64,000 nt of DNA from a virus: positions 1-64,000 of the IMG/VR virus record IMGVR_UViG_3300017717_002521; one strand, written 5' to 3'. The first letter of the stretch is position 1; each line of letters starts with the position of its first letter. This document shows, one piece after another, positions 13,887-48,067 of this stretch. Position numbers and translations under genes: made by a program. The notes under the pieces were generated by a model, which worked only from the letters and a program-made list of their open reading frames with translations, searched no databases and was not told where the DNA came from.

Positions 13887-14827
13887 TGAAGTATATACTC
13901 TACCATAATCATAATGCAACTATGTTTCAGTCTACTGTTTTGGATAGAGTGGCTAATACTATTATAGAGAAGTATCCGGAACATGAATTCGAGATTATTG
14001 ATCCTCATCCTAAATATGAGAAGTTATACCCAAATTGCGGACCAGGATGTAAATACAGCAATCATCATTATCTTTATATACTTAACCCAGATACAGGTAA
14101 ATACTTTCTATTTTCTTTTTGGGATAGGTTAGAAGATATAGTTAATATCGACCCTACTGTTACTGGTTGGGATACTGAGAATATAGTTGAAATATTTACC
14201 TCATGTGGAGTAACTGATTTATTTTGTCACCAATTAATTCCATCCTTAGACGAAGCATACACTCCCTGGTGTTATACTTATAATAATCCTCGATTACATG
14301 AAAGTTTAGATACATATAAAAGTATGGCTAAAAAATTTATTCCCAGTAAACCTTCTTTTAATGGTTCAGTCTATTCCTTTAGAGAATACCTTACTAAAGA
14401 CAGTAGATTTAATGTAAGTTCAGATATTCTCGAAGAAGAAAAATATTATACTTGGTTAGCTTCTAATAAAATAAATTTTAATATAAATGGCGCTGGAGAG
14501 GTATGTCATAGAGATATGGAAATACTAGCTGTAAAATCAGCTCTTTTTAGAGAAAAACTTAATAGTAAATTCCATAACAACTTGATACCTGATTACCATT
14601 ACATAAGCGTAGACTGTAGTGATTTAAAGCGTACTGAGCAATACGAGGGTTTATATAAAGCCAAAGCTGATAGAATTTTAGATAGATATAATGAAGTTAT
14701 AAAAGATCCTGAATATTTAGAGTTTGTTGCTGATAATGGACACCAATGGTGGTTGGATAACAGTAAGATAGATAGTATAGCTAATATTTCAAAAAAATTA
14801 ATTAATATAGATAAGTTAGATGAATGA
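13886..14827 (+). CDS. Probable glycosyltransferase
   Basis: A 313-residue protein in the middle of the sugar cluster. Its C-terminal third (NINGAGEVCHRDMEILAVKS near 190-210, then a YHYISVDCSD segment and a helical end with FVADNGHQWW) resembles the C-terminal region of GT-B or CAP10-like transferases. The N-terminal part with NHNATMF near 8-14 is unclear. Family assignment is tentative and leans on context. It overlaps the next carbamoyltransferase by 8 nt. Confidence 0.5.
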   Translation: MKYILYHNHNATMFQSTVLDRVANTIIEKYPEHEFEIIDPHPKYEKLYPNCGPGCKYSNHHYLYILNPDTGKYFLFSFWDRLEDIVNIDPTVTGWDTENIVEIFTSCGVTDLFCHQLIPSLDEAYTPWCYTYNNPRLHESLDTYKSMAKKFIPSKPSFNGSVYSFREYLTKDSRFNVSSDILEEEKYYTWLASNKINFNINGAGEVCHRDMEILAVKSALFREKLNSKFHNNLIPDYHYISVDCSDLKRTEQYEGLYKAKADRILDRYNEVIKDPEYLEFVADNGHQWWLDNSKIDSIANISKKLINIDKLDE

Positions 14828-16523
14828 TTTTTATATTCTCGGTATTAATGGTTCCCATAATGGCGGTATTACAGTTGCCAAAAACGATAAGGTAGTTTTA
14901 ACATTAGAGTTTGAACGTTTATTTAATGAAAAAAATGTAGGGTTAGCCCAATATAAAACAATCAAAGGCTCAGATATAGTCTTTATGATGAAGTATATTT
15001 CTAAATATATTTTAAATTATTTTGGAATTAAAAAATTTAATAAGATAGTAGCATTAAATACAGGAGTAAATTTTGGTCAAGGACAAGACCAAGAAACTTA
15101 TATAGCTGAGAATTATATACCAGCCGACGAGTATATTTACGGTCATCACCATGCTGCTCATGCATTTAATGTTCTTTATACTTCTCCTCATGATAAGGCG
15201 TTGATAGTCTCATTTGATGGAGGGGGAAACGATGGATTTTTTAATGTATATTTAGGAGATAAGAAAAATAAAATAAGTGATAAGTACGATCATATAGACT
15301 TATTAGAAACAGTTAAACATCCAAATGCCGGGAGTCCTCATGTATTTTTAGACTTAGGTTTACCTTATGCATCTTTCGGAGAAGTTTTACAAGATATAAG
15401 AAGAGAAGGAGACTTATCTAACGGTATACTTGTATACCCAGGTAAAATTATGGGATTAGCTTCGTATGGTGAAGTTAGAAAAGAATGGTTAGATAGATTT
15501 ATTCAGTACTATATTGGTAATGTACATCAAGGTAATAGTTATGTAGATCACATGAAAAATTTATTTGATGATTTAAAAATAGAACATAACGATACCCTTT
15601 TTCACAACCGATATGAAGAAGATAGACTTTCAGGCAAAGTAGCATACGATATTGCTGCTACTTCTCAAAAAGCATTTGAAGAAGCATTTTTAGTATTTGC
15701 TAAACCTTGGATGGAACGTTATAATGATATACCTATGTGTCTAGCGGGAGGATGTGGATTAAATATTATACTCAACACTAGACTTAAAGAAGAATTTGGT
15801 AGAGAAGTATTTGTAGGACCTGCTCCTAGTGATTGCGGAATTAGTACAGGACTATGCTTACAAGAGTTAAAACCTAAAATACCTGCTGATATTACTTATG
15901 CTGGATTACCTTTATTAGACCCTAATTCTGTTTTTGAACATATTAACGACCACTGGTGGTTTACAAGTCACGATGTAGATGAAGGTGATATAGTAGATAG
16001 TTTAGCAAAAGGAGAAATTATTGGACTTATAAAAGGCAACTCTGAACATGGACCTAGAGCTTTAGGAAATAGAAGTATATTATGTAATCCTTCTATTAAG
16101 AAAATGAAAGATATACTCAATGAAAAAGTTAAAAATAGAGAGTTTTATAGGCCTTTTGCCCCTGTTGTAAGATTAGAAGATGTTTCAGAGTATTTTGAAT
16201 TTGAAGGAGAGTCAAGATGGATGACTTTTTGTCCTAAGGTAAGAACAGAATGGAGAGAAAAATTAGCAGCTATTACCCACGTTGATGGTACTGCTAGAAT
16301 TCAAACTATTACTAGAGAGCAAAATACTTTCTTATACGATTTAATTTCTAAATTTAAAGATAAAACAGGCATTGGAGTTTTATTAAATACTTCATTTAAT
16401 ATAGCTGGTAAACCTATTACTAATACTGTTAAAGACGCAATGACTTTATTTAGAGATACAGAACTAGATAAACTGATAATTAACGACATATACTTTAAAA
16501 AATGCCAAAAAACGTTACTATAG
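14820..16523 (+). CDS. Carbamoyltransferase, NodU/CmcH family (copy 1)
   Basis: Transfers carbamoyl from carbamoyl phosphate through an adenylate to a hydroxyl group, usually on a sugar. The 567-residue protein has the Kae1-like N-terminal domain with GHHHAAHAF at 108-116 and SFDGGGNDGFF for nucleotide binding. The second domain has GNSEHGPRALGNRSIL and the NTSFNIAGKPI segment near the end. Full length for the family. Placed among glycosyltransferases, so the acceptor is probably a sugar; carbamoylation of a modified base is an alternative. A second member lies at 24 kb. Confidence 0.85.
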   Translation: MNDFYILGINGSHNGGITVAKNDKVVLTLEFERLFNEKNVGLAQYKTIKGSDIVFMMKYISKYILNYFGIKKFNKIVALNTGVNFGQGQDQETYIAENYIPADEYIYGHHHAAHAFNVLYTSPHDKALIVSFDGGGNDGFFNVYLGDKKNKISDKYDHIDLLETVKHPNAGSPHVFLDLGLPYASFGEVLQDIRREGDLSNGILVYPGKIMGLASYGEVRKEWLDRFIQYYIGNVHQGNSYVDHMKNLFDDLKIEHNDTLFHNRYEEDRLSGKVAYDIAATSQKAFEEAFLVFAKPWMERYNDIPMCLAGGCGLNIILNTRLKEEFGREVFVGPAPSDCGISTGLCLQELKPKIPADITYAGLPLLDPNSVFEHINDHWWFTSHDVDEGDIVDSLAKGEIIGLIKGNSEHGPRALGNRSILCNPSIKKMKDILNEKVKNREFYRPFAPVVRLEDVSEYFEFEGESRWMTFCPKVRTEWREKLAAITHVDGTARIQTITREQNTFLYDLISKFKDKTGIGVLLNTSFNIAGKPITNTVKDAMTLFRDTELDKLIINDIYFKKCQKTLL

Positions 16524-19013: not shown

Positions 19014-19805
19014 ATGGCGAAAAATGTCGTAGTTAGTCTTTCAGGAGGGATGGACTCCTCAACTCTATTACTTAGATGTTTATCTGAGTATGATAATGTA
19101 ACTGCTTTATCTTTTGATTATGGTCAGAAGCATAGAGTAGAGCTCGAAAGAGCTCAATCATTAGTAGATTATTTAAATGCTAATGGTCAGAATATTAAAT
19201 ATCAAGTTATTAAACTTGACGGATTAGTTAATCTTCTTAACTCAGCATTAGTAACTGGAGGAGATGATGTACCGGAAGGTCATTATGAAGAAGATAATAT
19301 GAAAGCTACTGTAGTACCCAATAGAAATAAAATATTTGCTTCTATAGTTCAAGCAGTTGCTTTGTCTGAAGCTAATGCAAATGGTTTAGAGACTGATATT
19401 GCTCTAGGTATACATGCAGGAGATCATGCAATATATCCAGACTGTAGACAGGAGTTTAGAGATGCTGATGATTATGCCTTTAGATTAGGTAACTGGGATG
19501 CAGATAAAGTAAATTATGCTACTCCTTACTTAGATACTGATAAACTTGGAATTTTAAAAGATGGACAAAGATTGGTTAACGAGCTCGGAATTGAGTTTGA
19601 TGAAGTTTACAAACGTACTAATACTTCTTACAAGCCCTATCCTAGCGGTAATAGCGACTATAAATCAGCATCATCTGTTGAAAGGATTGAAGCATTCATC
19701 AACTTGGGTGTGGATGACCCTGTACAATATGAGGATGAAACTGGAGAAGTTGAATATAGTGTTGCGAAAGCACATGTCGAAAAACTATTAGCACAATATG
19801 CGTAA
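19014..19805 (+). CDS. queC: QueC-like 7-cyano-7-deazaguanine synthase without zinc cysteines
   Basis: QueC turns 7-carboxy-7-deazaguanine into preQ0 using ATP and ammonia. The 263-residue protein has the PP-loop SGGMDSS at 10-16, FDYGQKH (34-40), VPNRN (101-105) and YPDCRQEF (141-148), all typical of QueC. In normal QueC the end carries a zinc knuckle of four Cys (TxSC..., CGxCxxC). Here the matching stretch, 202-227, reads TNTSYKPYPS then GNSDYKSASSVERIEAF, with no Cys at all. The zinc is structural in known QueC, so the enzyme may still work. A cysteine-poor QueC relative that decarboxylates CDG has, as I recall, been proposed for some phages; that alternative fits less well because this phage also has QueF, which needs preQ0. 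Confidence 0.85.
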   Translation: MAKNVVVSLSGGMDSSTLLLRCLSEYDNVTALSFDYGQKHRVELERAQSLVDYLNANGQNIKYQVIKLDGLVNLLNSALVTGGDDVPEGHYEEDNMKATVVPNRNKIFASIVQAVALSEANANGLETDIALGIHAGDHAIYPDCRQEFRDADDYAFRLGNWDADKVNYATPYLDTDKLGILKDGQRLVNELGIEFDEVYKRTNTSYKPYPSGNSDYKSASSVERIEAFINLGVDDPVQYEDETGEVEYSVAKAHVEKLLAQYA

Positions 19806-23796: not shown

Positions 23797-23988
23797 ATGA
23801 GTAGTATAAAAAAAACGTTAGTAAAAACTTTTATATGGAGAATTATAGCTACTTCAATTACTATATTTACAGGATGGGCAGTTTCAGGTGATTGGAAATT
23901 TGGATTAGCAGTAGGAAGTATAGACACGGTATTAAAAACCATAGGATACTTCAGTTACGAAAGAATCTGGATAAAATTTTACAAATGA
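23797..23988 (+). CDS. DUF2061 membrane protein
   Basis: 63 residues with the family pattern: KTLVKTFIWRIIATSITIF, a first helix, then GSIDTVLKTIGYFSYERIW. Two membrane helices. DUF2061 proteins often sit by sulfate-activation genes in bacteria, which fits the APS-kinase-like gene 1.2 kb upstream; this link is from memory and context. Its last codons overlap the next start (ATGA). Confidence 0.75.
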   Translation: MSSIKKTLVKTFIWRIIATSITIFTGWAVSGDWKFGLAVGSIDTVLKTIGYFSYERIWIKFYK

Positions 23989-25625
23989 TTAAATTAGGGA
24001 TATCAGCTTTTTACCACGACTCGGCTGCTGCACTAATTATAGATAATAAAGTAGTAGCTGCTGCAGAAGAAGAGAGATTTACAGGGATTAAACATGATAG
24101 TAGTTTTCCTAAAAATGCTATACGATATGTACTTTCAGAAGCTGGTAAAACTATTTATGATATAAATGAGGTATATTGGTATGAAAATCCAGAAAAAAAA
24201 GATAGCAGAGTCCGCACTACGTTTGCTAAAAAACCCTTCAAAACGTTTTTTCTTAACAGGAAGTATAAAAAATTCAAAAAGTCCCAAAATCCGAAAGATA
24301 TTCTCGAATCTATGGGCTACACCGGCAAAATCTATTTTAACGATCATCATGATAGTCACGCTGCTTACTCTTATTACACTAGTGATTATAGTAATTCAGC
24401 AATACTCACTGTCGACGGTGTTGGAGAGTGGGAAACAACTACTATCTCCCACGGTAGAGGTAATAAAATAGAGAAAAAAATATCTATAGATTTTCCTAAC
24501 TCTTTAGGAATGCTATATTCAACTATTACTGCATATTTAGGATTTAAACCTAATGAAGGTGAATATAAAGTAATGGGACTTGCTCCATACGGTGATAGTA
24601 GAGTATATTTTACTGAATTATTATCTGTGTTTGAAAATACTTCTAACAAATTTACTATAAATCAAAAATACTTTACCTGGGAATATTCAGATAAGATAAT
24701 GTTTAACAGACGTTTATGCAAATTACTTAATTTACCCCCTAGACTCCCTGAAGAAAAAGTTACTCAAGATCATAAAAATTTAGCTGCAGCTTTACAAAAA
24801 CTTTACGAATATCAATTTTTAAAGTTAGTAAAAACAGCTAAAAATATTACAGGTTCTGATAACTTATGCATATCAGGAGGTTGTGCTTATAATGGTAAAG
24901 CTAACAGTTTAGCATATAAGTTTTTTAAGTCAATTTATATACCTTTTGCTCCTTCAGATGCAGGGTCAGCAATAGGAGCTTGTTTAAATAGTAAAATAAA
25001 AATTGATCCATACTTAGGACCTGAATTTTCAGATAAAGTTGTTAAGAGTGTAGTTAATAAGTATAAACCAAATCTTTATATTTTTAAACTTAATGAAAAT
25101 GCTCTTATTAATAAGGTTGCTAAATTAATAAATGGTGGGAATATAATTGCATGGTTCCAAGGCAGGATGGAGGTCGGAGCAAGAGCTTTAGGCAATAGAA
25201 GTATACTAGCTAACCCTAGAGATCCATCAATGAGAGAAAAATTAAATTTAGTTATAAAGAAAAGAGAAGGATTTCGACCCTTTGCCCCTGCTATTACTGA
25301 AGAAAGATTTTATCAATTTTTTGATTCTGAAGAGATATCACCATATATGTCTAAAGTAATGAAAAGTAAAACTAAACTTATTCCTTCGGCTACCCATATA
25401 GATAATACATGTAGAGTTCAGACAGTTTCAAAAAAGCAAAACGAAAAATTTCATAAACTTATTACTCAAATTGGAAGTCAATCAGGAATACCTGTAGTTT
25501 TAAATACATCATTTAATCTTAAAGATCAGACTATAACATTAACTCCTGAACAAGCTATTAAGAGATATTTAAATTCAAATATAGACTTTTTAGTAATCAA
25601 TAACTTTTTAATACAAAAAAAATGA
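23985..25625 (+). CDS. Carbamoyltransferase, NodU/CmcH family (copy 2)
   Basis: A 546-residue O-carbamoyltransferase. I chose ATG 23985, which overlaps the DUF2061 stop, over an upstream TTG because the family begins directly at KLGISAFYHDSAAALI. HHDSHAAYSYY holds the metal-binding His; TVDGVGEW and EYKVMGLAPYG are family motifs; the second domain has GARALGNRSIL and VLNTSFNLKDQ. Distant from copy 1 at 14.8 kb, so they were probably acquired separately. The likely acceptor is a sugar made by the surrounding transferases. Confidence 0.85.
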   Translation: MIKLGISAFYHDSAAALIIDNKVVAAAEEERFTGIKHDSSFPKNAIRYVLSEAGKTIYDINEVYWYENPEKKDSRVRTTFAKKPFKTFFLNRKYKKFKKSQNPKDILESMGYTGKIYFNDHHDSHAAYSYYTSDYSNSAILTVDGVGEWETTTISHGRGNKIEKKISIDFPNSLGMLYSTITAYLGFKPNEGEYKVMGLAPYGDSRVYFTELLSVFENTSNKFTINQKYFTWEYSDKIMFNRRLCKLLNLPPRLPEEKVTQDHKNLAAALQKLYEYQFLKLVKTAKNITGSDNLCISGGCAYNGKANSLAYKFFKSIYIPFAPSDAGSAIGACLNSKIKIDPYLGPEFSDKVVKSVVNKYKPNLYIFKLNENALINKVAKLINGGNIIAWFQGRMEVGARALGNRSILANPRDPSMREKLNLVIKKREGFRPFAPAITEERFYQFFDSEEISPYMSKVMKSKTKLIPSATHIDNTCRVQTVSKKQNEKFHKLITQIGSQSGIPVVLNTSFNLKDQTITLTPEQAIKRYLNSNIDFLVINNFLIQKK

Positions 25626-26535: not shown

Positions 26536-26538
26536 AAG

Positions 26539-26569
26539 TTGGCTATTAAAATATTTTTTATTATATTTA
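26539..26569 (+). promoter_or_regulatory. Promoter (TTGG-N19-TATATTTA) of the queDE operon
   Basis: TTGG at 26539-26542 and TATATTTA at 26562-26569, 19 nt apart. Transcription would begin just before the riboswitch-like hairpin at 26583. Confidence 0.75.
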
Positions 26570-26582
26570 TTAATATGACTAT

Positions 26583-26613
26583 AGTGTCGTAGCACCACTT
26601 TAAAAACACGAAA
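26583..26613 (+). promoter_or_regulatory. preQ1-I riboswitch-like element before the queDE operon
   Basis: A stem AGTG (26583-26586) and CACT (26596-26599) closes a 9-nt loop, TCGTAGCAC, followed by an A-rich tail TTAAAAACACGAAAA that runs into the start codon at 26615. The preQ1-I class has this plan: one short stem, a UCGYAG-type loop ending AAC/CAC with the ligand-reading C, and an A-rich tail that folds back as a pseudoknot. Loop TCGT can pair with tail ACGA. Folding would hide the ribosome-binding region, giving translational repression by preQ1. The twin element before folE has a different stem sequence but the same loop. Confidence 0.78.
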
Positions 26614-26614
26614 A

Positions 26615-26893
26615 ATGGTAAATTTAAATTTAAAAGAAATCGAGGATGACCTCTATGACGTTGATTCTCGCAAATTAAGGAACGAAGAGTATCTCTACAG
26701 TAGACGTTCTAAAGCTAAAAGTCCTTCACAACCTACAAATCACCCAGATGCTAAAAAGCATCAAATAGTATCTTTTATTAAGTCTGGAGTTAGAATAGCA
26801 GGGTACGTATTATTAGCTGCCGATATGTTGGTAGCCTGCGCAGTAGTTCTTATATTATCAGAAGTAGTAGGTATCTACGAAGAACTGGTATAA
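26615..26893 (+). CDS. Small membrane protein, first gene of riboswitch operon
   Basis: 92 residues: a charged N-terminal half (about 1-50) and a hydrophobic stretch near 55-90 that could form one long or two short helices. It lies between the preQ1-like riboswitch and queD, sharing one base with queD. A role in the pathway, such as precursor transport or membrane anchoring, is only a guess. Family not recognised. Confidence 0.6.
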   Translation: MVNLNLKEIEDDLYDVDSRKLRNEEYLYSRRSKAKSPSQPTNHPDAKKHQIVSFIKSGVRIAGYVLLAADMLVACAVVLILSEVVGIYEELV

Positions 26894-27360
26894 TGGGAAA
26901 ATTTACATCAACGAAAGTATTTGACGGTTTCTCGACTGTATTCCGTCAATGGAAAGCCGAAACTACTCACTGTAGGTATTTACATGGGTATGGTATATCA
27001 TTTAAATTATGGTTTGAAGGAGATTTGGATGAACGTAACTGGGTATGGGACTTCGGAGGTATGAAAAGAGCTAAAGGTACTATAGACGGTATGTCTCCTA
27101 AAGCATGGTTTGATTACATGTTTGATCATACTTTTGTAGTAGCCGAAGATGATCCTTTTAAAGAATCTTTTCTTAAAATGAATGAAGCAGGTGTAGCTCA
27201 AGTAAGAATAGTACCTGCTACAGGAGCTGAAAGATTTTCTCAATTTATTTACGATAAAGTAAATCCCTTTATAAAAGAAGAAACTCAAGGTAGAGTAAAA
27301 ATATCAAAAGTAGAATTTAGAGAACACGGTAAAAACTCAGCAATATATGAGCCTAGGTAG
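26893..27360 (+). CDS. queD: QueD: 6-carboxy-tetrahydropterin synthase
   Basis: Second step of 7-deazaguanine synthesis, from dihydroneopterin triphosphate. The 155-residue protein has FRQW-x5-HCRYLHGYGISFKL at about 17-39, where the Cys of HCRYLHG is the catalytic position, then WVWDFGGMK and FDHTFVV. The last His of the usual HGH is Tyr, and CRQW reads FRQW, as in a variant QueD group with a changed zinc site. Operon with queE, which it overlaps by 14 nt. Confidence 0.85.
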   Translation: MGKFTSTKVFDGFSTVFRQWKAETTHCRYLHGYGISFKLWFEGDLDERNWVWDFGGMKRAKGTIDGMSPKAWFDYMFDHTFVVAEDDPFKESFLKMNEAGVAQVRIVPATGAERFSQFIYDKVNPFIKEETQGRVKISKVEFREHGKNSAIYEPR

Positions 27361-28123
27361 AATAGAAGACTACAATAAAAATTTACCAATAGTAGAAGTA
27401 TATACTGCAGTACAATCGGAAGGTTCAAGACAAGGTTTTCCTACTATTGTTATTAGAACTACTGGTTGCACTCATAGGTGTTACTTCGGTGAAGGTGGCT
27501 GGTGTGATAGCTGGTATACAAGTATTCATCCAGAAAAAGGTAAGTTTAATTTTAATGACATTATTAAAGCATATGATGATAATCCTCATATATCAGAAAT
27601 GATGTTAACTGGTGGTTCTCCTACTATGCATGGTAAACTTGTAAATGAACTTACACATTTTGCTAATGAAAGAGATATCTTTATTACAATAGAGAATGAA
27701 GGTAGTCATTTTTTACCTACTGACTATCCTATAGATTTACTTTCTATTAGTCCTAAGTTTAGTAACTCTATTCCTCAACTAGGAGTAGAAACTCCTCAAG
27801 GTAAGATTGTAGATGAAAAAATGATTAAACAGCATAATAAGTTTAGACTTAATAAAGATGCTATAAAAAAGTCAATAGAGTATCATAAGGATTATCATAT
27901 TAAACCTGTATTAGATAAAGATTTAAGGATTTATGGTGAAGTTTATAAATTCTTAGAAGAGTTAGAGATACCTAATGAAAAAGTTTGGTGTATGCCTGCA
28001 GGTGATGATAGAGAATCTTTAATGGAAAGCTACCCAGTTGTTATGGACTTTGTTAGAGATAAAGGATATAGATTTACTGGTAGAGCACATATTATGGCGT
28101 TTAATACTGAAAGAGAAGTATAA
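27347..28123 (+). CDS. queE: QueE: 7-carboxy-7-deazaguanine synthase (radical SAM)
   Basis: Third step: ring contraction of carboxy-tetrahydropterin to CDG. The 258-residue protein starts PIVEVYTAVQSEGSRQGFP, which is the QueE N-terminal motif. The cluster-binding cysteines are C41, C45 and C53 (CX3CX7C), so the last spacing is wider than the radical-SAM norm CX3CX2C; QueE proteins are known to vary there. MMLTGGSPTMH is the SAM-binding GGxP motif. Intact. Confidence 0.88.
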   Translation: MSLGRIEDYNKNLPIVEVYTAVQSEGSRQGFPTIVIRTTGCTHRCYFGEGGWCDSWYTSIHPEKGKFNFNDIIKAYDDNPHISEMMLTGGSPTMHGKLVNELTHFANERDIFITIENEGSHFLPTDYPIDLLSISPKFSNSIPQLGVETPQGKIVDEKMIKQHNKFRLNKDAIKKSIEYHKDYHIKPVLDKDLRIYGEVYKFLEELEIPNEKVWCMPAGDDRESLMESYPVVMDFVRDKGYRFTGRAHIMAFNTEREV

Positions 28124-29542: not shown

Positions 29543-32017
29543 ATGAGAAAACTCGTTACAGTGCTGTTAATGTTTTTAGCAGTTGGAGCTTACGCTCAAG
29601 AAACGAGTACTGATTCTAAGACCATCTTAGATGTAAACTTAGAAGAAGTTGTTGTATCGTCTAGAGTTATTGATGTCGCAAAAGAAAGAGAGACACCAAT
29701 TGCAGTTAGTACGATCTCAGCACAAGAAGTACTCCTTAAAGTAGGAAACCAAGAGTTTCCAGAAATTATGAACAAGACACCTGGAGTGTATGCTACTAAA
29801 CAAGGAGGAGGATACGGTGATAGTCGTATTTCTTTAAGAGGTTTCGATCAGCGTAATACTTCTTTCCTTATTAACGGTCAACCCGTTAATGATATGGAAA
29901 ATGGTTGGGTTTATTGGTCAAACTGGCAAGGATTGACAGACGTGACGTCTAGCATCCAAATCCAACGTGGTCTTGGTGCCACATCGTTAGCAGTTCCTTC
30001 AGTCGGTGGAACTGTTTCTATTTTCACTAAGAGTGCAGAGAAAGCTCAAGGTGGGTCTATTACTCAAATGGTAGGTAACGACGGTTACATTAAAACAACC
30101 GCTCTTTACAATACTGGAGTAAATGACAAAGGATGGTCTTCTTCTTATTTATTGACTAAATGGTCTGGTAACGGATATATTTACAATACTTCAGGAGCTG
30201 GTTGGACTTATTTTGCATCTGTTGGTTACACACCAGAAGGTTCAAAACATAGCCTAAACTTATCAGTTTTAGGTGCTGGACAATGGCATCATCAAAGAGA
30301 TGTTTGGGTATCTATTAGAGATTACCAGAACTTTGGTAAAGCCGGTATTGATCAGAGATGGAATACTAACGGTGGAACGTTAAATGGTAGTGAGTATAAC
30401 TTACGTAGAAACTTCTACAATAAACCTCTTGCTACTCTAAACTGGGATTGGGATATTTCAGAAAACGTTCAATTAAATACATCTGTATACGGTTCAGCCG
30501 GAAGAGGTGGAGGAACAGGTCCTAGAGGTAGAAACTATTATGAAGGATCTATCGATATGTTACCTTTCCGTAAGGATCTAACAGAACACTACCTAGAAGA
30601 TGGTAAAGGAACTAGAAATGCTGATGGTACTATTAACTATGACGCAGTAGTTGCTCATAACTCACAATACGAAGTAGGGTCTCATAATGATAAAGATTAC
30701 GCTAGAAACGTATTAGTACGAAGAGCATCTATGAACTCTCATAACTGGATTGGAGCTATCTCTAAGCTTAATATCCAGAAAGGTAGTATGAGATATTCAT
30801 TAGGATTAGATCTTAGGGATTACACAGGTTATCACTACAGAGCAATGAATGATCTATTAGGTCTTAATCAATATGCTTCTACTGGTAACCAAAACTTAAG
30901 TACTCAACTATATAATTCATCTGATTTAATATCAGCTAACCCATTTAGAGGTACTAATATTGGTGATAATGAAGCAAAGATTGCTTATTATAATATTGGA
31001 TTTGTAAAATGGGCTGGATTTAACGGATTAGTAGAATATGCTGGTGATAAGATTACTGCAGTACTACAAGCCGGAGCATCTAACCAACAGTTCCAAAGAG
31101 AAGATAGATTTGCAAACGTAGATAATCCTATTTCTGATAAAGCTAACTTAGGTGGTGGATATCTTAAAGGAGGATTAAACTATAACTTTACTGAAAAATC
31201 TAACGTATTTGTAAACGCTGGATTTATTGACCGTCAGCCTTTATTTGACGCAGTATTCCCTAACTTTGGAAATGACGTTAATCCAGACCTACAAAATGAA
31301 CGTATCGAATCATTTGAGATTGGGTATGGTTATATAGGTAAGAGATTAAGACTAAATGTTAATGCATATAACACTAACTGGGGTAATAGATTTGTTTCTA
31401 GAAGTTTATCTAACCAACAAGGTGTAGATGGTACAGCTCAGTTTAGAAATATTGATGTAACACATAAAGGTTTCGAAGCTGAAGGTACTTACACAGTAGG
31501 AGGTACTAAGCTTAGAGGTATGCTATCTATTGGGGATTGGACTTATACTAAAGACTTTGAAGCAGAGTTATTTGATGAGAATCAACAATCTATCGGTACT
31601 GGTAAACTTTACTTAAAAGGAGCTAAAGTAGGAGATGCTGCACAAACTACAGCATTATTAGGTATTGATCAGAAGATTGGGTCGAACATTAGAGTTGATC
31701 TAGATTACAGATTTGTAGATAACCTATACGCTGACTATAGTATTACTGATTCAGCTTTTACTTCTCCTGATAATGATGGAGCGTTAAAACTACCTTCATT
31801 CGGTTTATTAGATTTAGGAGCTACATTTTATGCTAATAATGGATGGTCGTTAAGAGCGAATATTAATAACTTATTAGATGAAACTTATATTGCAGAGTCT
31901 AATAGTAATATTCATACAGATGCTGATTCCACTACTTGGAACGGTGTTGATGTTAGAAATAGTGTTTGGTTCGGCTTCGGTAGAACTTGGAACGTTTCTC
32001 TCAAATATAAATTTTAA
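29543..32017 (+). CDS. TonB-dependent outer-membrane receptor
   Basis: A full 824-residue receptor. Signal peptide ending AYAQ, then a TonB-box-like LEEVVVSSRVI, a plug domain (about 45-165; FPEIMNKTPGVYATKQ, RISLRGFDQRNTSFLING, SIQIQRGLGATSL) and a 22-strand barrel to the end, closing with WNVSLKYKF and a terminal Phe for BAM insertion. It resembles flavobacterial receptors and no frame break is seen. Codon use at the 5' end looks somewhat richer in CGT/GTC than neighbours, which hints at later capture. It is followed by its own terminator. Possible roles: nutrient uptake during infection or blocking rival phages. Confidence 0.88.
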   Translation: MRKLVTVLLMFLAVGAYAQETSTDSKTILDVNLEEVVVSSRVIDVAKERETPIAVSTISAQEVLLKVGNQEFPEIMNKTPGVYATKQGGGYGDSRISLRGFDQRNTSFLINGQPVNDMENGWVYWSNWQGLTDVTSSIQIQRGLGATSLAVPSVGGTVSIFTKSAEKAQGGSITQMVGNDGYIKTTALYNTGVNDKGWSSSYLLTKWSGNGYIYNTSGAGWTYFASVGYTPEGSKHSLNLSVLGAGQWHHQRDVWVSIRDYQNFGKAGIDQRWNTNGGTLNGSEYNLRRNFYNKPLATLNWDWDISENVQLNTSVYGSAGRGGGTGPRGRNYYEGSIDMLPFRKDLTEHYLEDGKGTRNADGTINYDAVVAHNSQYEVGSHNDKDYARNVLVRRASMNSHNWIGAISKLNIQKGSMRYSLGLDLRDYTGYHYRAMNDLLGLNQYASTGNQNLSTQLYNSSDLISANPFRGTNIGDNEAKIAYYNIGFVKWAGFNGLVEYAGDKITAVLQAGASNQQFQREDRFANVDNPISDKANLGGGYLKGGLNYNFTEKSNVFVNAGFIDRQPLFDAVFPNFGNDVNPDLQNERIESFEIGYGYIGKRLRLNVNAYNTNWGNRFVSRSLSNQQGVDGTAQFRNIDVTHKGFEAEGTYTVGGTKLRGMLSIGDWTYTKDFEAELFDENQQSIGTGKLYLKGAKVGDAAQTTALLGIDQKIGSNIRVDLDYRFVDNLYADYSITDSAFTSPDNDGALKLPSFGLLDLGATFYANNGWSLRANINNLLDETYIAESNSNIHTDADSTTWNGVDVRNSVWFGFGRTWNVSLKYKF

Positions 32018-32297: not shown

Positions 32298-33089
32298 ATG
32301 AAAAAATTAAATTTTGCAGATTGGGTAGGAATGGGTTTTATTATTATAATGATAATAGTATTTCTTCTTATACCTTCTCCCGCCAAAGCAGATTGGGGTA
32401 AAACAGGACATAGGGTTATAGGACAAATAGCACAAGATAACTTAACTCCCAAAGCCCAAAAAGAAATATCAGATTTACTATACGGCGAAACATTAGCTAC
32501 AGTTAGTACATGGGCAGACGAGATTAGATCTGACTCTTCTTATGACAGTTACAAAGTATGGCATTACGTTAATATGCCTTTAGATAAAAAATATGAAGAA
32601 GTAGAACATACTCAAGACAATGTAGTTATAGGTATTCAAAAATGTATAGCAGTTTTAAAAGATAATTCAGCAAGTAAAGAAGAAAAAATTTTTCATTTAC
32701 GATTTTTAGTACATTTAGTTGGTGATATTCATCAACCTTTACACGTAGGTAGAGCAGAAGACTACGGCGGAAATAAAATATATGTAGAGTTTTTTAAAGA
32801 CGGAACTAATATACATAGAGTATGGGATACCGATATGATTGAAAACTTTAATATGAGTTATACTGAAATATCCGAATATCTACAGTCATATAAAAAACAA
32901 GATTTTGCTCAAGGAGACGCAATATGCTGGGCGAACGAATCTCAACAAATAGTTAAGAAAGTTTATGAAATAGAAGTTGGAGAACAGCTTTCATATTCTT
33001 ATATTTACAGTAACTTCTATATAGTAAAAGATAGGTTATATAGAGCAGGTATCAGATTAGCTAATTTATTAAACTCAATATATGTCTAA
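32298..33089 (+). CDS. Secreted S1/P1-type nuclease
   Basis: A trizinc endonuclease for single-stranded DNA and RNA. The 263-residue protein has a signal peptide ending AKA, so Trp33 lies at the mature N-terminus as the family needs. Other zinc ligands are H38 (GHRV), D74 (WADEIR), H89 (WHYVNMP), H139, D143 and H145-H149 (LVHLVGDIHQPLH), H173 and D177 (NIHRVWD). All are present, so it should be active, outside the cytoplasm. It could protect against competing DNA or scavenge phosphate and nucleotides. Next to the TonB receptor. Confidence 0.87.
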   Translation: MKKLNFADWVGMGFIIIMIIVFLLIPSPAKADWGKTGHRVIGQIAQDNLTPKAQKEISDLLYGETLATVSTWADEIRSDSSYDSYKVWHYVNMPLDKKYEEVEHTQDNVVIGIQKCIAVLKDNSASKEEKIFHLRFLVHLVGDIHQPLHVGRAEDYGGNKIYVEFFKDGTNIHRVWDTDMIENFNMSYTEISEYLQSYKKQDFAQGDAICWANESQQIVKKVYEIEVGEQLSYSYIYSNFYIVKDRLYRAGIRLANLLNSIYV

Positions 33090-35733: not shown

Positions 35734-35764
35734 TGAGTCGTAGAACCTCAATAAAAACAAAAGT
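35734..35764 (+). promoter_or_regulatory. preQ1-I riboswitch-like element before folE
   Basis: Stem TGAG (35734-35737) with CTCA (35747-35750) around loop TCGTAGAAC, then the A-rich tail ATAAAAACAAAAG running to the ATG at 35767. The loop differs by one base from the queDE element while all four stem pairs are kept with different bases: three positions on each arm changed together, the mark of selected RNA structure. Tail AC-A-A-A can pair with G and U of the loop in the pseudoknot way of preQ1-I RNAs. FolE is the first enzyme of the preQ1 pathway, so feedback control makes sense. Confidence 0.8.
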
Positions 35765-37266: not shown

Positions 37267-38061
37267 ATGATTAAAATAGCTCATGAAGCTCCTATAGATA
37301 TTTTTGACGAAGTTCAAAGGTTAACTGATTACGATTACGCTTTAGTTCATTTATTAGAGCAAAATGGTAGATATAGAGATACGTTTGAAAGAGCAGTTAA
37401 AAGAGGTAGAGAAGTTATTTTAGATAACTCTATTTTTGAGTTAGAAGAAGCATTTGAAGCTGATAGATTTGCATTATGGGTTGAAAGATTAAAACCTACT
37501 TGGTATATAGTTCCAGATGCATTGGAGAATGCTGAAAAGACTATGGAACAAGCACTTGATTGGGTTAAAAGTTATAAAAGTATACCTGGGAAAAAAATAG
37601 GTGTTGTTCAAGGTAAAAACTATCACGAGATTGTAGCTTGTTATAAGTTTATGGACACTAGAGATATTGATATGATAGCTATTTCATTCGATTATTCGTA
37701 TTATAGTGATTCTATTCCTCATCCTAACAAGTATGTTAGCTGGATGCTAGGACGTGTTAAGCTACTAGGAGATTTAGAGAGAGACGGTATAATTAATAAA
37801 GATAAACCTCATCACTTACTAGGTTGTGGATTACCTCAAGAATTTAGTTTTTATAAAAATGCTAACTATAAATGGCTCTACTCTTTAGATACTTCTAACC
37901 CAGTAGTCCACGGTCTAAAAGGTATAGAGTATGACAGAGAAGGACTTTGGTCTAAAGAATCTCAAAAGTTACATGAATTAATTAATGTACCTATAGAAGA
38001 GATTGATATTGAGAAAGTAACTAGTAATATAGAGAAGTTTAGATGGCTAACAAATGGATAA
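37267..38061 (+). CDS. dpdA: DpdA-like DNA guanine transglycosylase (phage type)
   Basis: Would exchange guanine in DNA for a 7-deazaguanine. The 264-residue protein has blocks placed like those of tRNA-guanine transglycosylase relatives: VILDNSIFELEEAF at 50-63 (first catalytic Asp, D53), WYIVPDALENAEKT, KKIGVVQGKNYHEI, DMIAISFDYS, HHLLGCGLPQEF (182-193) and SLDTSNPVVHGL with D208 as likely nucleophile. It is shorter than Tgt and bacterial DpdA, as phage DpdA forms are. The tRNA-type zinc site is not visible. It overlaps the formyltransferase by 19 nt and lies in a window with the whole preQ1 pathway. Confidence 0.75.
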   Translation: MIKIAHEAPIDIFDEVQRLTDYDYALVHLLEQNGRYRDTFERAVKRGREVILDNSIFELEEAFEADRFALWVERLKPTWYIVPDALENAEKTMEQALDWVKSYKSIPGKKIGVVQGKNYHEIVACYKFMDTRDIDMIAISFDYSYYSDSIPHPNKYVSWMLGRVKLLGDLERDGIINKDKPHHLLGCGLPQEFSFYKNANYKWLYSLDTSNPVVHGLKGIEYDREGLWSKESQKLHELINVPIEEIDIEKVTSNIEKFRWLTNG

Positions 38062-39434: not shown

Positions 39435-40340
39435 ATGAGTGAAGTTAAAAATTATGAAGCAGTAAAAGAAATTGCTTCTAAACATTTAGGTAAAGTAGGC
39501 GGTGATGGTTATAGTGATCAATACAACGCTGAATTATTAGTTAAAATACCTCGAGTATTAAATCGAGAGGGGTATGGATTAACCGGTAAAGAATTTAAAG
39601 GTGTTGATACCTGGAACGCCTATGAAGTATCAGCTATAACTACTAAAGGTCAACCCGTTGCTGGGATGTTAAAAATAGTTTGTCCTTCTGATAGTGAATA
39701 TCATGTAGAGTCAAAATCTATTAAACTATACCTTAATTCATTTAATATGACTGAGATTGGAGATACAGCAGCTGATTGTATTACCGGCATAGAAGCTAGA
39801 GTAAAAAGAGATTTAGATGAGTTATTGGAAACTATTACTACCATAAGCTTTTATGCTTCAGAATTTGAAACTGAACCTCTTTCTTTTGCTAATGATTATA
39901 AAGATCTAGGTGAGGAAGTTAACTTAGATTTGATAGACTTTACTGCATTTAAGTCAGATGCTACTCAATTAGAGGTAAAAGAAGAAGAAGGTGAAATAAA
40001 ATTTAGATCTAATCTATTAAGGTCTAACTGTAGAGTAACTAATCAGCCGGATTGGGGAGATGTATTTATTTATATGAAAGGAAGTAAATTACCTGTAGCT
40101 GATTCGTTAGCTAAATATATAGTAAGTCATAGGACAGTTAGTCATTTTCATGAGGAGATATGCGAAATGATATTTGCTCATCTAAGTGAAAGATTTGAAC
40201 CTGAGCAATTAATGGTGTCGTGTTTGTATACTCGTAGAGGAGGAATAGATATTAATCCTATTAGAGCTACTCATAGTTATTTAATACCAGAGTTTTTTAC
40301 TAACCCCGATTTTACTATTAGAAAAACTTTAAGACAGTAA
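39435..40340 (+). CDS. queF: QueF: NADPH-dependent 7-cyano-7-deazaguanine reductase
   Basis: Reduces preQ0 to preQ1. The 301-residue protein is of the long E. coli-like form, with two T-fold halves. ESKSIKLYLNSFN at 92-104 is the QueF motif that binds NADPH and substrate. Catalytic Cys199 sits in RSNCRVTNQPDWGD, HEEICEMIF (239-247) supplies the substrate Glu, and YTRRGGIDINPIRA closes the family pattern. With QueC, QueD, QueE and FolE this completes preQ1 synthesis in the phage. The last six codons are echoed 270 nt later (see repeats). Confidence 0.9.
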   Translation: MSEVKNYEAVKEIASKHLGKVGGDGYSDQYNAELLVKIPRVLNREGYGLTGKEFKGVDTWNAYEVSAITTKGQPVAGMLKIVCPSDSEYHVESKSIKLYLNSFNMTEIGDTAADCITGIEARVKRDLDELLETITTISFYASEFETEPLSFANDYKDLGEEVNLDLIDFTAFKSDATQLEVKEEEGEIKFRSNLLRSNCRVTNQPDWGDVFIYMKGSKLPVADSLAKYIVSHRTVSHFHEEICEMIFAHLSERFEPEQLMVSCLYTRRGGIDINPIRATHSYLIPEFFTNPDFTIRKTLRQ

Positions 40341-45546: not shown

Positions 45547-45957
45547 ATGAATACATTTTTAACAGAACGTAATCCGTTCGACATTTTAGTAAGGAATTTC
45601 TTCCAAGACGCAGGAGCATACAGACCTCTTGCAGAATCCAAATTACCCCACCCAGTAGATATTTACGAAAGAGACAACGGTCTAGGACTAGACATAGCTT
45701 GTACCGGAATCTCAAAAGAAGATATTGAAATTCTTATTGAGGGTAATATAATCAGAGTTAATTACGATAAACCTAAAGAGGATGATTTAGGCGAATATAT
45801 CCATAGAGGTATCGCTAAAAGATCATTTAACCTAGGTTGGAAAATTGATAGTAGATTTAATCTATCTAAAGCAACAGCCGAATTTAAAAACGGACTGTTA
45901 CAAATAGTTATACCTTTTGCTAAAGGGTTAGAACCAAAAACTTTAACAATTAGCTAA
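45547..45957 (+). CDS. Small heat-shock protein, Hsp20 family
   Basis: A 136-residue holdase chaperone. The alpha-crystallin domain runs from about 35 to 130, with PHPVDIYERDNG, LDIACTGISKEDIEILIEGN, IHRGIAKRSFNL and ATAEFKNGLLQIVIP. Hsp20 genes are frequent in marine T4-like phages. It is followed by GroES and GroEL, making a chaperone block. Confidence 0.88.
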   Translation: MNTFLTERNPFDILVRNFFQDAGAYRPLAESKLPHPVDIYERDNGLGLDIACTGISKEDIEILIEGNIIRVNYDKPKEDDLGEYIHRGIAKRSFNLGWKIDSRFNLSKATAEFKNGLLQIVIPFAKGLEPKTLTIS

Positions 45958-45965
45958 ATAAACCA

Positions 45966-45975
45966 GCTCTGAGGT
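45966..45975 (+). repeat. Inverted repeat arm after hsp20
   Basis: GCTCTGAGGT pairs with the arm at 45484-45493. Its last base is the first T of the -33 element of the groES promoter (45975-45978). Confidence 0.6.
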
Positions 45976-46005
45976 TTGCTCTTCTATTAATTTATCTTAT
46001 ATTAA
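45975..46005 (+). promoter_or_regulatory. Promoter (TTTG-N19-TATATTAA) of groES-groEL
   Basis: TTTG at 45975-45978 and TATATTAA at 45998-46005, 19 nt apart: a perfect match to the window's consensus. Confidence 0.75.
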
Positions 46006-46022
46006 TTAAAAACGTTATATAA

Positions 46023-48067
<2,045 letters not shown>

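Follow-up and report, generated by a model that had tools for sequence, protein, structure and literature searches.

The stretch of DNA analysed here, referred to as the window, comprises 64,000 nucleotides of a virus record from IMG/VR. The whole route to preQ1 is phage-encoded (FolE, QueD, QueE, QueC and QueF), and the host is inferred to be a flavobacterium from its nearest cultured relatives, which infect flavobacteria. Two copies of a short element resembling the preQ1-I riboswitch lie ahead of genes of this pathway, and the features concerned are the following:

19014 to 19805, + strand: queC (PF06508, 6.2e-40)
26538 to 26542, + strand: GTTGG, possible -33 element of the queDE-operon promoter, read from the sequence
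26562 to 26567, + strand: TATATT, putative -7 box of the same promoter, read from the sequence and inferred without start-site data
26583 to 26610, + strand: preQ1-I-like element, an RNA hairpin plus tail ending 4 nt 5' of the ATG
26583 to 26586, + strand: P1 5' strand AGUG, whose partner strand is 26596 to 26599
26587 to 26595, + strand: aptamer loop UCGUAGCAC (DNA TCGTAGCAC), comprising U6 C7 G8 U9 A10 G11, CA and C26595
26596 to 26599, + strand: P1 3' strand CACU, the first C of which pairs with G26586 and closes P1
26600 to 26610, + strand: L3 UUAAAAA, C26607 and ACG, the A-run spanning -13 to -9 relative to the start codon
26600 to 26614, + strand: tail TTAAAAACACGAAAA, followed by the ATG (26615) of the operon's first gene
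26615 to 26893, + strand: 92-aa putative membrane protein, first gene of the queDE operon
26893 to 27360, + strand: queD (PF01242, 1.3e-13; PHROG QueD, 6e-42)
27347 to 28123, + strand: queE (PHROG QueE-like, 1.6e-47)
35734 to 35758, + strand: second element preceding folE, with P1 UGAG/CUCA, loop UCGUAGAAC, L3 AUAAAAA and C35758
35767 to 36480, + strand: folE, GTP cyclohydrolase I (PF01227, 6.6e-42)
37267 to 38061, + strand: DpdA-like DNA guanine transglycosylase (68% identity to a protein of phage immuto annotated as DpdA; no Pfam match)
39435 to 40340, + strand: queF, preQ0 to preQ1 (PF14819, 4.8e-27; PF14489, 2.3e-17)

At 26583 to 26610 the plus strand reads AGTG-TCGTAGCAC-CACT-TTAAAAACACG, and the RNA segment between P1 and the start codon is UUAAAAAC; the stem, loop and A-rich tail directly before the operon are as given in a preliminary description of this locus. 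The last loop base, C26595, is the putative specificity base, and C26607 in the tail is taken here to be the equivalent of C30 in the Tte aptamer. The operon had been described as queDE and does contain both genes, but it begins with the 92-aa putative membrane protein, which has no match in Pfam or PHROGs and whose C-terminal part is conserved in phages both with and without the element (L102-L121). The gene upstream of the element is thyA. A -7 box had been placed about 13 nt before the element, whereas the distance from the end of the nearest TATATT to P1 is 15 nt; in 70 of 76 distinct copies, a TANNTT-like hexamer is found 6-20 nt 5' of P1. Single-strand folding energies of the two window copies are unremarkable (z of -0.2 and -0.9), as expected for a 4-bp stem and for a pseudoknot that lies beyond the scoring of the program.

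The preliminary description was right about this element and overlooked the second copy, where the sequence at 35734 to 35763 ahead of folE reads TGAG-TCGTAGAAC-CTCA-ATAAAAACAAAAG. Between the two window copies the stem is altered on both sides with full compensation, while loop and tail are almost identical. Only these two sites in the window fit a structure-aware pattern, for which shuffled sequences give an expectation of 0.3. The covariance model R1, derived from 60 distinct copies in phages, gives the queDE copy 49.3 bits and the folE copy 44.7 bits, the next-best site in the window reaching 15.2. Over the whole 91-kb virus record, R1 retrieves exactly these two copies. The folE copy heads a run of genes comprising folE, mazG, the DpdA-like gene and, further downstream, queF, and no copy was found in the window directly before queC, dpdA or queF by the pattern, by R1 or by reading the upstream sequence. 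The two-copy regulon is a matter of observation.

Copies were collected from IMG/VR contigs retrieved via QueD, the 92-aa protein, FolE and DNA patterns. Over 60 distinct copies, P1 is 98.8% paired, and two of its four pairs show two-sided changes, one in 16 copies and the other in 21 (37 cells), giving stems of the types AGUG/CACU, UGAG/CUCA, GGAG/CUCC, UGUG/CACA and GGUG/CACC; the closing pair is G-C in all 60. The P1 covariation score is 0.444, compared with 0.096 after shuffling and at most 0.163 when the pairing is slid; the pairing of P1 is an observed feature. In contrast to the exchangeable stem, the loop and the A-rich tail barely vary across IMG/VR phages. The loop consensus is TC(G/A)NAG(C/A/T)(A/C)C, with TT replacing TC in two copies; U6, A10, G11 and the final loop C are invariant, C7 exceeds 90% and the A before the final C is nearly invariant (alignment A1). 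The A-run is invariant as well, and a C follows it in 113 of 113 matched copies. The conservation does not reflect recent shared descent of the whole region, since the upstream sequence diverges widely between phages.

Pairing of the tail with L1 (P2), a feature of type II, is less clear-cut. The preliminary description had noted that the loop TCGT can pair with ACGA in the tail, which holds for the window copy but for just 52% of aligned cells, and this helix was rejected as a conserved pairing. The tail contact that appears conserved joins G11 of the loop to the C that follows the A-run, and this G11-C30 pair can form in 51 of 60 copies. Positions 9 (loop) and 33 (tail) can pair in 44 of 60 copies and covary in part (C-G in 7, G-C in 4, U-A in 26 and U-G in 6; n = 60), resembling the C9-G33 pair of the Tte aptamer; this is no more than suggestive. 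In one phage group (L139, L140 and L185), the element heads a lipoprotein-like gene (MKKLLLFLPLIWACE...) and has the loop TCGGAG and the tail CACC, and positions 9 and 33 remain pairable in this variant.

The genomic context of the element is equally a matter of record. A que or folE gene lies no more than 4.5 kb downstream in 109 of 118 pattern hits; several of the remaining 9 run into the end of their contig and the others are likely false. The first gene after the element is the 92-aa protein in 36 cases, FolE in 30, QueD in 3, QueE in 2 and unassigned in 4, and element-bearing phage records (85-191 kb) contain one or two hits each, never more. Such downstream genes and low copy numbers mark the element as a sign of que and folE genes and not as a general phage promoter. 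It could still be imagined that the conserved unit is a DNA element, either a promoter part or a repressor operator with inverted-repeat arms, given that both window copies sit just 3' of a -7-like box. However, its arms co-vary around an asymmetric loop that hardly changes, and the tail is fixed as well, which is the reverse of what a palindromic operator would show; it is also restricted to que and folE operons and absent from other phage promoters, so that this explanation is hardly tenable.

Class I preQ1-I riboswitches are situated in the 5' leaders of genes of the queuosine pathway, and the phage element shares this placement. Class I aptamers read preQ1 by a cytosine just 5' of the P1 3' strand, and their pocket also involves the loop U6, an L3 adenine and a floor G-C pair, with a C7-G11-C30 triple in Tte; the defining feature of type II is an AC at the specificity site (PMC11625349). 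The phage element is like type II (Tte, B. subtilis; RF00522) in its H-type layout, closing G-C pair, U6, C7, A10 and G11, in the AC before the P1 3' strand, the A-rich L3 and the tail C (C30), and in its occurrence in que-gene leaders. Judged from the positions alone, the C7-G11-C30 triple may also form in the phage element. The element differs from type II in its 4-bp P1, in having only two loop residues from G11 to the specificity C and in its 7-nt L3, and it is phage-borne, below the Rfam cut-off and without a Shine-Dalgarno sequence. In the Tte aptamer, P1 has 5 bp, L2 has 3 nt and L3 has 9 nt. The invariant positions are those of type II, but P1, L2 and L3 look shorter. Binding of preQ1 is not guaranteed, as characterised aptamers have a longer P1 and longer spacing between their conserved positions.

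Conserved features of this kind are not peculiar to metabolite sensors. A short conserved loop, exchangeable stem pairs and a location near the start codon are also typical of protein-bound operators, and the element might be an RNA operator through which a que-pathway protein or the small membrane protein of the phage regulates its own synthesis, with no metabolite involved. This is considered quite improbable, as the preQ1 pocket is reported to use these very positions, the A-rich tail and the C beyond the hairpin included, and as the 92-aa family is present also in phages without the element.

Formal membership of the known family is a separate matter. The search against the Rfam preQ1-I model that the preliminary description had proposed as a check was negative: RF00522 lists neither window copy, not even when a 51-nt stretch is searched at E<=10, and the whole window compared with Rfam at the gathering cut-off and at E<=10 gave nothing relevant. 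When a sibling folE copy (L303) was compared with 4,227 Rfam families, RF00522 ranked first at 17.9 bits (E 0.066); the alignment is in register but has deletions in loop and tail, and the score stays below the gathering cut-off of 39 bits. Over 12 phage records, RF00522 gave no match above the cut-off (0/12), and two weak sub-cut-off matches (in G007 and G005) coincide with element copies. As the window copies are missed and the sibling copy is best matched by RF00522 but below its cut-off, the element is classed as a phage-specific miniature variant of preQ1-I that is nearest to type II and not a formal Rfam member; its ligand binding is untested.

Type III offers a second comparison, also being of class I, with AC at the specificity site and a very small aptamer. 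The type III aptamer of E. coli was studied as a 30-mer construct and described as the smallest natural one (PMC10622847). The core of the phage element from P1 to C30 is 25 nt, or 28 nt to position 33. Type III has a UU motif and buries an AAGG Shine-Dalgarno sequence, whereas the phage element has a single U in all but two copies and no Shine-Dalgarno-like sequence (75 of 75), and the type III criteria are not met. An ordinary type I preQ1-I riboswitch does occur in a Bacteroidia genome (L364 in G353; 50.7 bits, above the Rfam cut-off), where it precedes a gene read by eye as a predicted queuosine-precursor transporter. It shares class and host phylum with the phage element and differs by two Us, a UC motif and a 5-bp P1. 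This was the single preQ1-I match among 395 genomes of a Bacteroidia class. R1 had no match in the same 395 genomes, a weak null result since just ~18 candidates per genome were scored, and the exact motif pattern had 0 matches in 84,980 prokaryote species.

The ligand is inferred, whereas the co-occurrence of the element with QueF is observed. In the first 27 phage records, QueF is present in 21 of 21 with the element and in 0 of 6 without it (Fisher 3e-6), the latter including the cultured que phages phiST and MA9V-3. A second set was limited to contigs >20 kb, excluding contigs <=18 kb and one 22.8-kb contig with an ambiguous QueF match, and here QueF occurs in 7 of 7 element-bearing contigs compared with 4 of 18 without the element. 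Those with QueF but no element (L278, L293, L029 and L310) have no Rfam riboswitch in the stretch searched. The association is confounded by shared ancestry, the test being made without phylogeny correction, but the element is also present in one record whose QueF is only 38% identical. dPreQ1 has been found in the QueF-encoding phage Dp-1 by Hutinet et al. (PMC6884629). Because the element tracks QueF and dPreQ1 is known in Dp-1, preQ1 is favoured over preQ0 as the ligand. The stretches searched in the QueF-encoding phages Dp-1, KVP40, D484 and 1.081.O contain no known preQ1 family and no R1 match.

A riboswitch of the same fold might nevertheless sense another guanine-like compound such as preQ0, guanine or a 7-deaza-dG nucleotide: the specificity C reads just the guanine face, known aptamer variants can switch ligand (PMC11625349), and the shorter L2 could change the pocket. 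Set against this are the tracking of the enzyme that converts preQ0 to preQ1 and the lack of the element in QueF-less que phages (phiST, MA9V-3 and others), and another ligand is regarded as unlikely.

Taking preQ1 as the ligand, the position of the element suggests how control might operate. Flavobacterial ribosomes initiate without reliance on Shine-Dalgarno pairing, and none of the 75 copies has a Shine-Dalgarno-like sequence before the start codon. In 73 of 75 copies, the L3 A-run overlaps the stretch from -14 to -11 relative to the start codon. Translation in F. johnsoniae is boosted by adenines at -12 and -13 and falls when these are mutated (PMC6847099). It is proposed that the 4-bp P1 hairpin would fold near the mRNA 5' end, and that loop and A-rich tail would wrap preQ1 in an H-type pseudoknot, with the last loop C contacting the Watson-Crick face of preQ1, the loop U6 and an L3 adenine contacting its edge, and the loop G11 pairing with the tail C. 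As preQ1 accumulates from phage FolE-QueD-QueE-QueC-QueF, the pseudoknot would lock the A-run at about -13 to -9, and translation of queDE and of the folE operon, which extends over mazG, the DpdA-like gene and queF, would be reduced. Both operons would be turned down because flavobacterial ribosomes start translation using such adenines, which preQ1 would lock. The pseudoknot geometry, the direction of control and the translational mechanism are all inferred.

A preQ1-I-like element at phage que genes, as first suggested, remains the best-supported reading, resting on P1 compensation, fixed pocket positions, confinement to que and folE, the second copy and QueF. In the absence of expression or binding data, it is considered probable that the window contains a two-copy miniature class-I preQ1 riboswitch exerting feedback control on the phage preQ1 pathway. 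A broader proposal, for which the chances appear about even, is that it represents a phage-specific fourth type of class-I preQ1 riboswitch, with an aptamer of 25-28 nt among the smallest natural ones, which, in mRNAs that have no Shine-Dalgarno sequence, controls translation by masking the Bacteroidota adenine enhancer and sets the preQ1 supply for phage DNA modification.

Riboswitches have been described as rare in phages, and those already reported include the glutamine riboswitch of methylophage Melnitz and a psbA candidate in cyanophages (PMC9004378). These are also phage-carried but concern another ligand and other genes, and no phage riboswitch for preQ1 or for DNA-modification genes was found in the open-licence literature searched. 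A 2024 preQ1 review predicts translation-controlling riboswitches in organisms that do not use Shine-Dalgarno sequences, and the phage element, which is common to many related viruses, is a compact and testable candidate for such control. If the proposal is true, it shows how a phage restrains a DNA-modifying base and provides a very small aptamer. A copy ahead of folE is also present in the cultured Flavobacterium phage immuto (MW353175), making direct testing feasible.

Further genes of the window were noted in passing. Two carbamoyltransferases (14820 to 16523 and 23892 to 25625) have glycosyltransferase-like and 2OG-oxygenase genes nearby, and these neighbourhoods suggest further DNA or glycan modification. 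Slightly downstream of the queDE operon, the phage genome encodes a TonB-dependent receptor (29543 to 32017; plug and barrel by Pfam) and a protein of the S1/P1 nuclease family lies at 32298 to 33089. Hsp20, a GroES-like protein and a GroEL-type chaperonin are encoded by adjacent genes at 45547 to 47971 (Hsp20 and GroEL by Pfam).
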